64,000 nt of DNA from Treponema sp. (GTDB taxonomy: Bacteria; Spirochaetota; Spirochaetia; Treponematales; Breznakiellaceae), in NCBI GenBank assembly GCA_031266775.1, contig JAISAQ010000107.1, positions 18,553 through 82,552 on the forward strand. The letters are read 5' to 3'. Each line of letters opens with the position of its first letter. Position 1 is the stretch's first letter. The notes under the pieces were generated by a model. That model was not told the DNA's origin, searched no databases, and was given only the letters and a program-made list of their open reading frames with translations. Made by a program: the position numbers and the translations under genes. Below are positions 4,046 through 59,970 of this stretch, one piece after another.

Positions 4046-4318
4046 CTATTCGATAGCCGCGATAATGTCGGACATCTTAAGAATCAGGTGATCCTCGCCG
4101 TCAATCTTGACCTGCGTTCCGGCGTATTTGTCGTACATCACCTTTTGTCCTGCCTTAACGGTGATGGGATCCTTTTCGGTTCCCGGTCCCACTTCAACCA
4201 CAGAGCCGGTCTGGGTCTTTTCCTGGGCGGTATCGGGAATGATGATGCCTCCGGCGGTTTTCGCCTCATTCTTCTCAAGTTTGACCAATACCCGGTCGCT
4301 CAAGGGCTTTACCTTCAT
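4046..4318 (-). CDS. groES: Co-chaperonin GroES
   Basis: MKVKPLSDRVLVKLEKNEAKTAGGIIIPDTAQEKTQTGSVVEVGPG...VMYDKYAGTQVKIDGEDHLILKMSDIIAAI. Confidence 0.97.
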   Translation of the reverse strand: MKVKPLSDRVLVKLEKNEAKTAGGIIIPDTAQEKTQTGSVVEVGPGTEKDPITVKAGQKVMYDKYAGTQVKIDGEDHLILKMSDIIAAIE

Positions 4319-4463: not shown

Positions 4464-4524
4464 GGGTCATAAAATGGGGAATTATGACACATTTATACGG
4501 CGATTTTTGAAGATCGTGTCATAA
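4464..4524. promoter_or_regulatory. Cluster of inverted half-sites, candidate enhancer (UAS) for the sigma-54 promoter
   Basis: GGGTCATAA (4464-4472), TTATGACAC (4482-4490) and GTGTCATAA (4516-4524); the last two are exact reverse complements. Confidence 0.45.
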
Positions 4525-4530
4525 TAGGAC

Positions 4531-4552: not shown

Positions 4553-4649
4553 GCGGAAAGAATTTCCCCTTTGAAAAGATCATATTTCTTTCTAATTCAT
4601 TGTAATACAAGGAATTAGACGATCCGTTTTTTTACGGTAAAACAGAAGA

Positions 4650-4666
4650 TTGGCACGGTTATTGCT
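4650..4666 (+). promoter_or_regulatory. Sigma-54 (RpoN) promoter
   Basis: TTGGCACGGTTATTGCT matches the YTGGCACGrNNNTTGCW consensus; GG and GC correctly spaced; ATG with AGGAGG SD follows at 4697. Confidence 0.8.
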
Positions 4667-4696
4667 ACTATATTGGTAACCTGGCAAGGAGGGTAC

Positions 4697-5575
4697 ATGA
4701 CCGCGACTAAAGTCAAGAAAACCGAACCACGGATGAGGAAGAACCTCGAAGACAATGTTCTTTCCCAGTACCTCAAGGAAATCAACCGCATTCCCCTTTT
4801 GACAAGGGAAGAAGAAGAAAATGCCGCAAGGAGCGCGGCAAAGGGCAATCAGGAAGCCAAGAACATTCTGATCAGGGGGAATCTGCGTTTTGTCGTCAAT
4901 GTAGCAAAGAAATATCAGGGACAGGGGCTGCCTCTTTCGGATCTTATCAGCGAAGGAAACATAGGCCTTATAAACGCCATTGGCCGCTACGATGTAGAGA
5001 AGGGATACCATTTTATCTCCTACGCGGTATGGTGGATACGCCAGGCGATCCTAAAGGCAATCTGCGAAAAATCCCGGATGATACGGCTTCCCCTTAACCG
5101 GGCAAACGAAATGGTCCAGATTGAAAAGGCAAGGAAGATGATTCAGGAAGGCGCCGGGACGGACAGCGAGACACAGGAAATAGCAAGGCTCCTTAACATG
5201 GACGCTTCCCATGTGGCGGATCTGGTAAAAATTTCACGGGGGCTCGTTTCCCTTGAAAATCCCGTCTATTCAGGCAAGGACACATCCAGTCTGGGCGATT
5301 TTATAGAGGATGAAAACTACCAGTCGCCTGATGAACACGCCATTGAATATGCCCTTAAAAAAGACATAGAAATGGTGCTGAAAACCCTCAACGAAAAAGA
5401 GGCGGACATTATCCGTTACCGCTACGGCCTGGGGAACACCACTCCCCTTTCCCTCAAGGAAATAGGCGAACGCTTTAACCTTACAAAGGAAAGGATACGC
5501 CAGATTGAAAAGAAAGCCATCAAGCGGCTGCAACACCCTTCGCGGCAGAAACTCCTGGAAGTCTACGTCGCCTGA
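4697..5575 (+). CDS. Small RNA polymerase sigma-70-family factor (no region 1.1)
   Basis: NLRFVVNVAKKYQGQGLPLSDLISEGNIGLINAIGRYDVEKGYHFISYAVWWIRQAI (region 2), C-terminal LKEIGERFNLTKERIRQIEKKAIKRL (region 4); start set at the ATG after AGGAGG. Confidence 0.93.
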   Translation: MTATKVKKTEPRMRKNLEDNVLSQYLKEINRIPLLTREEEENAARSAAKGNQEAKNILIRGNLRFVVNVAKKYQGQGLPLSDLISEGNIGLINAIGRYDVEKGYHFISYAVWWIRQAILKAICEKSRMIRLPLNRANEMVQIEKARKMIQEGAGTDSETQEIARLLNMDASHVADLVKISRGLVSLENPVYSGKDTSSLGDFIEDENYQSPDEHAIEYALKKDIEMVLKTLNEKEADIIRYRYGLGNTTPLSLKEIGERFNLTKERIRQIEKKAIKRLQHPSRQKLLEVYVA

Positions 5576-56156: not shown

Positions 56157-57950
56157 ATGAAAACAGTCAGAACCCATCCGAAACAGCCGGTGGTAAGCGT
56201 TCGGGGGCTGGTGCTGATCTACTTTCTCCTCTGTATCCTGTCCGTGTTTTTTTCGCGGTCGTTTTTTTCGGAAACGCTCCGCAGCGGCAGCATGCCAAGC
56301 CCCCTTAACCTTGCCGTCTTTTTTGCCATTCCCGCCGTTCTCCTTGTACTTCTCGCCATTTCCGCGGCAAGCCTTGTCCGGGATCTCATTACCCAAAGAA
56401 CGGGAAGCAAATTCAAGGCGCGGCTGCTTGCCTACTTCATCGTCATCGTCGTATTTGCCGCGGCGCCCGTGACCCTCGTCACAAACCTGGGGATAAGGGA
56501 GATGATCCGGTTCTGGCGGGGCATAGACACGGGCGCCGCCATGGGCGCCGCGGAAAGTTTCGCGGTCGAAAATTATTCCCTTCACAGCGAGCGGTTTGAA
56601 ACGATGATCCGCGGCGCCGATCTTTCCCCGTACCTTGTACCGGACGAAGCGGCGGCCGGCGCGGCCGGAAAGGGGTCTGCCGGCGTCCCGCCCCTTCCGC
56701 CCGGTATAGCGGCGCTGGAGGAATTCCGGGAAGACGAAAACGGCGCGTGGAAGAGCCTCTCTTTTGCGGGGGAAGAATCAAGGCGGCTTGCGGCCCCGCC
56801 CCTCCTCTACAGCGGCTTTGTCCCCAGGGAACTGCCCCGGGACCGCGGCCTCATACGTTACGCGATCCGCGGCGAAGATACCGTCCGCGTCATCAGTTAC
56901 ACTATTGGGGAAGATTTTGACCGGGGCATGGAAGCCATGCAGAACGAAAAGGCGCACTTCGAGATCATCGATTCGCTCAGGATTAATTACCAGAGGCTCA
57001 TGATCTTTTTTTACGGGGTGTTTTTCTTCCCCAGCCTCCTTATGACCATTATCATCGCCATTTCATTTACGCGGCGGGTTACCGCCCCCATCGTGGAACT
57101 GACCGAGGCGACGCGGCGCGTGGCGGAAGGTGATTTTTCCATACAGATACTCGCCCGCCGGGGAGACGAACTGGGGCTCCTTATCCGTTCCTTCAACTCC
57201 ATGGTGCACGATCTGGAAAAATCAAGGGAGGCTCTTTTCAAGGCGGAAAAAATCACCATCTGGCAGAACATGGCGCAGCAGCTTGCCCACGAGATCAAAA
57301 ATCCCCTCACCCCCATCAAGTTGTCGGCGGAACGGGTCCTGCGCCGCTGGAGGGGCGATCCCGGACGCATCGGCGAAATCCTCGAAAATTCCATGCTGGC
57401 CATCATCCAGGAAACCGAAGGGCTTTCCACCCTGTTAACCGAATTCCGTACCCTTTCCAAACCGATGGAGCCTTCAGGAACCTGGACCCGCATCAGGGAA
57501 GCGGCGGAGGCGATCACGGCCCCCTACACCGTATCCTACCCGGGGGTGCGCTTTGATACGGAATACATGGGCGGCGGCATTCTTGTGAAGATGGATCAGC
57601 ACCGCGTTTCCCAGGTACTGACCAACCTTATCATCAACGCCATAGACGCCATGAACGGCAAGGGGGTCATAGAACTGCGCACCGACCTTGTCAAAAAACG
57701 CGAGATCCGGTATTGTAGATTAAGCATTAAAGATACGGGGAAGGGGATTCCGGCGGAAGAAAGTTCCCTTGTCTTCACACCGTACTACACCACCAAAGAG
57801 TCCGGAACGGGACTGGGGCTTCCCATTGTTGAGCGGATTATCGGCGATCATGGCGGGGCCATCTGGTTTGATTCCAGGGAGGGAACGGGCACCACTTTCT
57901 TCATTGATCTTCCCATTGAAGAAGGCGGAGGAACCGATTCAGGACAATGA
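56157..57950 (+). CDS. NtrY-like sensor histidine kinase (TM, HAMP, HisKA, HATPase)
   Basis: NMAQQLAHEIKNPLTPIKLSAERVLRRW; N-box LINAIDAM; GLGLPIVERIIGDHGG. Confidence 0.92.
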   Translation: MKTVRTHPKQPVVSVRGLVLIYFLLCILSVFFSRSFFSETLRSGSMPSPLNLAVFFAIPAVLLVLLAISAASLVRDLITQRTGSKFKARLLAYFIVIVVFAAAPVTLVTNLGIREMIRFWRGIDTGAAMGAAESFAVENYSLHSERFETMIRGADLSPYLVPDEAAAGAAGKGSAGVPPLPPGIAALEEFREDENGAWKSLSFAGEESRRLAAPPLLYSGFVPRELPRDRGLIRYAIRGEDTVRVISYTIGEDFDRGMEAMQNEKAHFEIIDSLRINYQRLMIFFYGVFFFPSLLMTIIIAISFTRRVTAPIVELTEATRRVAEGDFSIQILARRGDELGLLIRSFNSMVHDLEKSREALFKAEKITIWQNMAQQLAHEIKNPLTPIKLSAERVLRRWRGDPGRIGEILENSMLAIIQETEGLSTLLTEFRTLSKPMEPSGTWTRIREAAEAITAPYTVSYPGVRFDTEYMGGGILVKMDQHRVSQVLTNLIINAIDAMNGKGVIELRTDLVKKREIRYCRLSIKDTGKGIPAEESSLVFTPYYTTKESGTGLGLPIVERIIGDHGGAIWFDSREGTGTTFFIDLPIEEGGGTDSGQ

Positions 57951-59365
57951 CCGGTATTCTGATCATAGATGACGAGCCTGGGATACGCCGCACGCTTGCT
58001 TCCATTCTGGAAGACGAGGGATACCGGGTCTATACATCGGAGGACGCCGTCATGGGCCTTGAAGTCCTTGCGTCCGAACAGATCAGCCTTGTTTTTCTTG
58101 ATGTCCTGCTCCCCCTGCTCGGCGGTATGGAGGCCCTTGAAACAATACGGACGGAATGGCCCGGCGTTGAAGTGGCGATGATCTCGGGCCACGCCAACGT
58201 GGACATGGCGGTGCGGGCGGTAAAACTTGGAGCCTTCGATTTTCTGGAAAAACCCCTTTCCCTCGACAAAGTGTTAACGGTATGCCGCAACGCCCTTGCC
58301 ATGCACAGCCTGCGCGAAGAAAACCGGGACCTTAAACAGAACTTCCGCTTTTCGGAAGAGATAATAGGCACAAGCAATGAGATAGAGGCGGTCCGCGCCC
58401 TGATCAGGCAGGCGGCCGCGAGCGACGCCCGTATTCTTATCACCGGGGAAAACGGCTCGGGCAAGGAACTTGCCGCAAGGGCCGTCCACAACGGATCTTC
58501 CCGCGCGGGAAAGGCGTTTGTGGAAGTGAACTGCGCCGCCATTCCCGAAACCCTCATAGAAAGCGAACTCTTCGGCCATGAAAGGGGAGCCTTTACCGGG
58601 GCGGCGTCTTCCAGAAAAGGCCGTTTTGAACAGGCCTCGGGGGGAACATTGTTCCTTGACGAGGTAGGCGATATGTCCCTTTCCGCGCAGGCAAAGGTGC
58701 TGCGGGCCATACAGGAGCAAAAAATAGAACGGGTAGGCGGAGAAAAAACCATACATACCGACGTGCGCATCCTGGCTGCTTCCAACAAGGATCTTGCCGC
58801 CGAATGCGGCGCGGGCCGTTTCCGCGAGGATCTTTTTTTTCGCCTTAACGTGATCCCCATACGCATCCCCCCCCTTCGCGAGCGGCCGGACGACATCATC
58901 CTCCTTCTAAGCCATTTCCTCAAAAGCCTCAATCTTCCGGATCTGGTCCTTGAAGAAGGAGCCGTAAAGCTGCTGGAAGCCCATCCGTGGCCGGGCAATG
59001 TACGGGAACTGCGCAACCTGGCGGAGCGGATATCCGTCATGTACCGGAACGGCGATACCCTGAACGCCGAAAGGGCCAGGGACCTGCTCCGCAAAAATCC
59101 CGAAGCCTTCGGCGGAAGCGCCGCGGCGCGGAAGCCGGAAGGGGCGGATTTCTTTCTTCCCAGGAGTATCATGGACATGAATTTAACAGGCGCGCGGGAA
59201 TCTTTCGAAAAGTGCTATTTGGAGTTCCAGCTTTCCAGAAACAATGGTATAATATCCAGGACGGCGGAGGCAATCGGCGTTTATCCGAGCAACCTTCACG
59301 CCAAACTAAAAAAATATAAAATAGCCGTAGACGGCGCGGTCCACAGCGAGAGGGAAGAACGGTGA
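57947..59365 (+). CDS. Sigma-54-dependent response regulator (NtrX/NtrC-like)
   Basis: ILIIDDEPGIRRTL receiver; ENGSGKELAARAVH; GAFTGA; GGTLFLDEVGDMSLSAQAKVLRAIQEQKIERVGG; C-terminal HTH. Confidence 0.95.
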   Translation: MTGILIIDDEPGIRRTLASILEDEGYRVYTSEDAVMGLEVLASEQISLVFLDVLLPLLGGMEALETIRTEWPGVEVAMISGHANVDMAVRAVKLGAFDFLEKPLSLDKVLTVCRNALAMHSLREENRDLKQNFRFSEEIIGTSNEIEAVRALIRQAAASDARILITGENGSGKELAARAVHNGSSRAGKAFVEVNCAAIPETLIESELFGHERGAFTGAASSRKGRFEQASGGTLFLDEVGDMSLSAQAKVLRAIQEQKIERVGGEKTIHTDVRILAASNKDLAAECGAGRFREDLFFRLNVIPIRIPPLRERPDDIILLLSHFLKSLNLPDLVLEEGAVKLLEAHPWPGNVRELRNLAERISVMYRNGDTLNAERARDLLRKNPEAFGGSAAARKPEGADFFLPRSIMDMNLTGARESFEKCYLEFQLSRNNGIISRTAEAIGVYPSNLHAKLKKYKIAVDGAVHSEREER

Positions 59366-59970
59366 AAGAACTTACACAGCGCCAAAATGAAGTGTTGTCG
59401 TTCATCGCGGAGTACTACGGAGCTCACACATATCCCCCGACCATACGGGAGATAGCGGATTATTTTTCAGTATCGGTAAAGGCGGCGCACGATCATATTT
59501 CGGCGCTGAAGAAGAAGGGCCGCCTTAAACAGGCCGGCAGGAGATCGAGGACCATGGAGCTGGTCCGAAACGGCGAAGACGAAAAGACAGAAGATTTTGT
59601 ACAGGTTCCGCTGTTGGGAAACGTGCCCGCGGGCCAGCCTGTTCTGGCGGAGAATAACTGGAACGAATCCATTTCCCTGCCCAGGTCCATGCTGAAAAGA
59701 AACCAGAATTACTTCGCGGTTAATGTACGGGGAGATTCCATGTCCGGCGCGGGCATCATGGACGGGGACCTGGCGGTTGCCGAACGGCTGGAAAGTCCCG
59801 ACAACGGGGAAATCGTCGTGGCGGTGGTGGACGATGCGGTAACGCTGAAACGGTTTTTCAGGGAAAGCAACAGGATACGGCTTCAGCCGGAAAATCCGGC
59901 GTACAAACCTATTTACAGCCAGAACGTCCGGGTCCTGGGAAGGCTCGCCCGCCTCTTCAGGTCTTATTGA
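59362..59970 (+). CDS. lexA: LexA repressor
   Basis: TQRQNEVLSFIAEYYGAHTYPPTIREIADYF; cleavage site VPAGQP; GDSMSGAGI Ser and VTLKRF Lys; GTG start overlaps upstream stop. Confidence 0.94.
   Translation: MKELTQRQNEVLSFIAEYYGAHTYPPTIREIADYFSVSVKAAHDHISALKKKGRLKQAGRRSRTMELVRNGEDEKTEDFVQVPLLGNVPAGQPVLAENNWNESISLPRSMLKRNQNYFAVNVRGDSMSGAGIMDGDLAVAERLESPDNGEIVVAVVDDAVTLKRFFRESNRIRLQPENPAYKPIYSQNVRVLGRLARLFRSY

Follow-up and report, generated by a model that had tools for sequence, protein, structure and literature searches.

The sigma gene and its upstream region

The DNA analysed, hereafter the window, was a stretch of 64,000 nucleotides from a Treponema draft genome (G000; 3.1 Mb, 108 contigs, 87% complete). 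Its sigma gene and the upstream region contain the following features:

4046–4318, minus strand: groES (co-chaperonin), divergent neighbour of the sigma gene, used as synteny marker
4481–4525, unstranded: inverted repeat ATTATGACAC...GTGTCATAAT, 10-bp arms, in the gap between groES and the sigma gene; kept in the four closest sequences
4591–4619, unstranded: palindrome TCTAATTCATTGTAATACAAGGAATTAGA, centred at 4605 (46 nt upstream of TGGCAC); candidate enhancer (UAS)
4650–4666, plus strand: predicted sigma-54 −24/−12 promoter TTGGCACGGTTATTGCT, perfect consensus; GG at 4652–4653, GC at 4664–4665
4677–4679, plus strand: predicted transcription start, 12–14 nt 3' of the GC
4687–4692, plus strand: Shine–Dalgarno sequence AGGAGG
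4697–5575, plus strand: sigma-70-family factor, 292 aa (ATG at 4697, stop ending at 5575), assigned from domains, synteny and trees

The consensus TGGCACG-N4-TTGCW was matched in full at 4651–4666, and the ATG of the sigma gene was found 30 nt downstream of TTGGCACGGTTATTGCT; the site at 4650–4666 is thus as given by the sequence-only reading, which had claimed a sigma-54 consensus here. In B. burgdorferi the mapped start of rpoS lies 14 bp after the GC (PMC1976401). Regions 1.2, 2, 3 and 4 of the sigma factor were found with Pfam and region 1.1 was absent, which bears out its earlier description as a factor lacking that region; the scores of the RpoD and RpoS equivalog models were under their cut-offs. 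The genome was also checked for rpoN, and a single intact copy was located (G000:C107; 510-aa open frame, E 4.8e-52). The inverted repeat at 4481–4525 may be part of groES or of the sigma gene. Nearest relatives were Treponema MAGs (sigma protein identity 97, 93 and 85%), which, going by the isolate series, we take to be termite-gut organisms.

Conservation of the promoter

Pattern searches of the 3.1-Mb G000 draft, with the reversed pattern as control, gave 11 matches to TGGCACN5TTGCW (control: 0); eight of them run directly into a dinucleotide repeat, most in one gene family, and the remaining three stand upstream of an ABC transporter and of two sigma genes, that of the window and a second one. 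When up to one mismatch was allowed, the TTGGCACGGTTATTGCT site was the sole match in the window; as about 1.6 such matches are expected by chance in DNA of this size, the motif in a single genome is weak evidence. Far beyond chance is its conservation upstream of orthologues: the strict motif stood near the gene start at 72 of the 78 related loci having upstream DNA (a one-letter variant at five more), and for 80 related loci 72 matches were counted in 19.5 kb of upstream DNA against 12 in the remaining 957 kb (strand sequence of the same 80 loci outside the upstream regions), a 294-fold enrichment. Class-wide sampling was confined to genomes of at least 90% completeness, mostly drafts or MAGs like the others compared; of the 102 examined, 96 kept the site, the 1.14-Mb T. 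pallidum-like genome G071 included, at a score threshold of 23 of 27, which is looser than the strict pattern used for the background. The same scan returned the motif before rpoS, an established sigma-54 target, in five Borrelia-like genomes. By these comparisons the predicted sigma-54 promoter before the window sigma gene is kept across nearly the whole spirochaete class; conservation in close relatives, which had been proposed earlier as a check, was observed for nearly all orthologues. A chance match, with the gene read from an ordinary sigma-70 promoter, would agree with the chance number given above for the window, but is hardly credible in view of the enrichment at this position and of class-wide conservation down to about 45% protein identity.

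Other sites of this type were noted in passing. Perfect sigma-54 sites TTGGCACGGTTTTTGC at the G000 loci L002, L005, L006, L007, L009 and L012 (also L008 and L011) run into (TC)n or (AC)n repeats that span the expected transcription start and vary in length among the copies; they stand mostly before a multi-copy lipoprotein-like family (MKRMSMFF..., Listeria–Bacteroides repeat domain) and are possible phase-variable sigma-54 promoters. The TTGGCACGGTTTTTGC core was found at several places in G001 and was absent from G002. A further perfect site, TGGCACAATTATTGCT (L003, G000:C18), lies shortly upstream of an ABC transporter ATPase/permease pair. In G071 a second sigma-54-like site, TTGGCATGGTTTTTGCT (L354, G071:C1:1136989–1137004), was found ca. 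40 nt before an ATG; most other sigma-54-like matches in that genome were at chance level.

Orthology of the two sigma genes

In a first tree Borrelia RpoS was grouped with G000:C33, the second sigma-54-driven sigma gene of the source genome, and a clade of Borrelia RpoS with the window family was rejected by the AU test (p = 0.010, with a long-branch caveat). Because long branches were a concern, class-wide RpoS-type sequences were added; in the fuller tree the window family (100/99) was separate from the RpoS-type family, Borrelia RpoS included (100/99). Reduced genomes that evolve fast, G071 and G016 above all, are placed with uncertainty in the trees, and for them the argument is carried by synteny. 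The gene order sigma – polysaccharide-deacetylase-like – tsaD is common to Borrelia rpoS and G000:C33 and was found also in G016 and at most other RpoS-type loci examined; the window gene stands not in this order but in a groES neighbourhood, and its neighbours (groES/nusB/surA-like/alaS) are shared with the sigma gene of G071. Gene position and gene order are part of the basis for labels like "Borrelia-like" or "T. pallidum-like".

As judged from trees and gene order, the window gene is the predicted orthologue of the groES-adjacent sigma gene in G071 (TP1012 type), which presumably stands at the position expected for TP1012, and the true orthologue of Borrelia rpoS in G000 is, by the same comparisons, G000:C33. 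The window gene as the RpoS orthologue was ruled out by the AU test, the fuller tree and synteny. The earlier proposal that the locus mirrors the Borrelia cascade holds for the regulatory logic; the window gene itself does not correspond to RpoS.

The sigma-54 motif was found at 65 of 68 RpoS-type loci (genomes), and at both sigma genes in 56 of the 62 sampled genomes having both. In G044 and G025 (2.8 Mb, T. denticola-sized) TTAG replaces TTGG of the −24 element, a change coordinated at both sigma genes (L207, L208, L418, L419). In G035 the window-type sigma gene is present three times (L196, L221, L228), twice without a sigma-54 motif.

Candidate activators

Toward the other end of the window an enhancer-binding protein (EBP) and its kinase are encoded:

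56157–57950, plus strand: HAMP-domain histidine kinase, partner of the NtrX-like EBP; best NCBIfam model HK_LIC11548, below cut-off
57947–59365, plus strand: NtrX-like response-regulator EBP with intact GAFTGA; not favoured as activator of the TTGGCACGGTTATTGCT promoter

This NtrY/NtrX-like pair is followed directly by lexA (56157–59970 in all). Three full EBPs were found in the G000 draft, namely a NifA-like and an FhlA-like protein (names read from domain layout) and the NtrX-like protein of the window. The EBP tree contained an Rrp2 clade (SH-aLRT 96) comprising Borrelia Rrp2, the T. pallidum-like response regulator, a protein of the congener G001 and the sigma-adjacent EBPs of free-living species; the window EBP fell outside. 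The HTH is strongly conserved within the Rrp2 clade and differs in the window protein. Tree and HTH comparison together ruled out the window EBP as the Rrp2 equivalent; the activator pointed out by the sequence-only reading is thus present with its GAFTGA motif, but is NtrX-like and lies outside the Rrp2 clade.

In seven genomes (G034, G010, G006, G024, G027, G061 and G112) the window-type sigma gene has a cluster of holB, a PAS kinase and an Rrp2 orthologue at a distance of 3.5–14 kb; in Borrelia, Rrp2 is 7.7 kb from rpoS. In G052 and G008 the Rrp2 orthologue was the sole EBP found; the promoter is kept in both and the palindrome in G052. All three congeneric assemblies have an Rrp2 orthologue (91–100% identity). 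None was found in the 87%-complete G000 draft, for which an assembly gap would be the simplest explanation. The Rrp2 orthologue, being linked to the sigma gene and the sole EBP in some genomes, appears from these gene contents the better activator candidate. It is unlikely that a real sigma-54 promoter is served here by the NtrX-like or the FhlA-like EBP instead: both are present in the draft in which no Rrp2 orthologue was found, and the former is encoded in the same window, ca. 53 kb off, but the promoter is kept where the Rrp2 orthologue is the only EBP, the three congeners retain Rrp2 at high identity, and the NtrX-like HTH is unlike that of Rrp2.

The upstream palindrome

The palindrome TCTAATTCATTGTAATACAAGGAATTAGA was found by aligning close relatives, in which it is conserved; an unbiased search for upstream palindromic words gave mostly A/T-rich words, and the alignment was more useful. 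In the more distant L048 both arms were changed and matched. Copies with at most three mismatches were found at 12 places in G000 (control: 0); one copy lies 40 nt upstream of the promoter of the second sigma gene, and another precedes a further sigma-54 site by 51 nt. A shared palindrome, TAANTCNTTRTANTAYAANGANTTA, was recognised in many promoters of both kinds, with its centre ca. 40 nt before the −24 element. Class-wide, the share of promoters with a match (at least 16 of 24 within the 60 bp adjoining the sigma-54 motif) was 42% for the window type and 49% for the RpoS type; in shuffled sequences it was 0.8%, and in a stretch lying farther from the motif 0–2%. Centres fell most often 36 to 42 nt before TGGCA, and over half of the promoters had no strong match. 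A spacing periodicity of ca. 10 bp in one set (p = 0.006, jitter null) is inflated by shared ancestry and only suggestive. The palindrome was not recognisable upstream of Borrelia rpoS and was not found at the T. pallidum-like sigma gene of G071.

Further copies in G000 (L126, L129, L130, L131, L133) have no sigma-54 site and lie in the dnaA–gyrB gap, beside tRNA genes, where they are terminator-like hairpins, and before a LacI-type gene. At L135/L301 (G000:C53:17700) a sigma-54 site, TTGGCACGGAATCTGCT, has the same palindrome 51 nt upstream and precedes a gene whose product, a membrane protein, is similar to dolichol or CDP-diglyceride kinases (the fragment tested had no match in Pfam); it is a possible third regulon member.

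These distributions suggest that the palindrome is a candidate enhancer for RpoN-driven sigma genes. A groES operator is unlikely, since RpoS-type promoters without adjacent groES have the palindrome too. A possible, if somewhat doubtful, reading is that a different regulator binds here, be it a repressor, a nucleoid protein or a BosR-like factor, the EBP acting from solution as in Borrelia. Enhancer-independent activation has been reported for Borrelia Rrp2 (PMC1976401), copies of the palindrome occur outside sigma-54 promoters, and the centres lie just ca. 40 nt before the −24 element, all of which accord with such a regulator; against it, the palindrome is common to both RpoN-driven sigma genes at similar spacing, and comparison with the Fur and Per boxes and the BosR repeat given in PMC3037356 yielded no match, so that a Fur, Per or BosR site was discarded.

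Proposed switch

The enhancer reading is used in what follows. The parts read directly from the sequences are the promoter, rpoN, orthology, conservation, the shared palindrome and the linkage with Rrp2 orthologues; from them we infer occupancy of the site and transcription from it, a palindrome-binding protein, a signal and a regulon. RpoN–RNA polymerase would be poised at 4650–4666 as a closed complex; an AAA+ EBP, most likely the Rrp2 orthologue, would be phosphorylated by its PAS histidine kinase, bind the palindrome at 4591–4619 and remodel the polymerase; the alternative sigma factor then made would direct core polymerase to a regulon of its own. The second sigma gene, the predicted Borrelia RpoS orthologue, would be driven by the same activator through the same palindrome. 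The two-sigma arrangement would be ancestral in the class Spirochaetia, Borrelia having kept the RpoS arm alone, with no recognisable palindrome, and the T. pallidum-like genome the window arm alone.

It is probable, as far as comparative sequence data reach, that the window sigma gene is the output of such a two-step RpoN/Rrp2 switch with a palindrome enhancer and belongs to an ancestral two-sigma arrangement. Points against are the failure to find the Rrp2 orthologue in G000, the palindrome copies away from sigma-54 sites, the many promoters with no strong palindrome match and the behaviour of Borrelia Rrp2. The RpoN-to-sigma cascade put forward by the sequence-only reading is well supported for the window gene, with rpoN present and the motif kept in nearly all orthologues, so that neither of the two genomic findings it had named as refuting was obtained; the EBP it had pointed to was given up as the Rrp2 counterpart. 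For B. burgdorferi, purified Rrp2 showed no binding to the DNA before rpoS, and upstream DNA was dispensable for activation (PMC1976401); together with the unrecognisable palindrome of Borrelia, this fits loss of an ancestral enhancer.

On balance we lean towards a spirochaete ancestor in which a single RpoN/Rrp2 switch, equipped with an enhancer palindrome of its own, fed two sigma factors; the Lyme cascade would then be what is left of it after reduction to the RpoS arm, its enhancer no longer recognisable, and T. pallidum would keep the other arm, making TP1012 RpoN-controlled. The comparisons suggest that in the Lyme-disease cascade one branch of an older two-sigma switch has survived, and that the circuit was inherited, ancestrally with two sigma outputs, its enhancer since lost in Borrelia. 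If true, this helps to explain why the DNA-binding helix of Rrp2 is conserved despite no enhancer having been found in Borrelia. For treponemes, in which little is understood of how transcription is controlled, the prediction is that RpoN controls the TP1012-type sigma factor.

Comparison with known systems

In the open-access literature no description of a class-wide or treponeme two-sigma RpoN cascade was found (subscription papers could hold one), nor, in the open literature, a report of RpoN control of TP1012. Papers on the Borrelia RpoN–RpoS pathway stay within the genus, B. burgdorferi being said to have "appropriated" RpoN for rpoS (PMC6719511); Spirochaetia also appear in a survey of sigma-54 regulons from 2025, with no sigma gene named as a target in the passages located (PMC12316311).

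Leptospira sigma-54 with EbpA/EbpB resembles the present system in combining a spirochaete RpoN with FhlA-like and NtrC-like EBPs, and the best model for the window kinase is of the LIC_11548 family (below cut-off). L. interrogans is without RpoS, and its listed sigma-54 targets are metabolic and envelope genes (PMC12655853).

T. pallidum TP1012 (RNA polymerase sigma factor), as represented by the T. pallidum-like G071, is like the window gene in sequence and in its groES/nusB/surA-like/alaS neighbourhood, and a sigma-54 motif stands 29 nt before its start; it differs in its 41–45% identity, its long branch and the presence of one arm only, and its identification as TP1012 rests partly on position.

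The B. burgdorferi Rrp2–RpoN–RpoS cascade shares with the window an RpoN promoter that drives an alternative sigma-70-family factor, and with the relatives compared here the Rrp2 orthologues in holB–histidine kinase–Rrp2 clusters. It differs in that the window sigma factor is of another family than RpoS, and in that two sigma targets and an upstream palindrome absent in Borrelia are found here.
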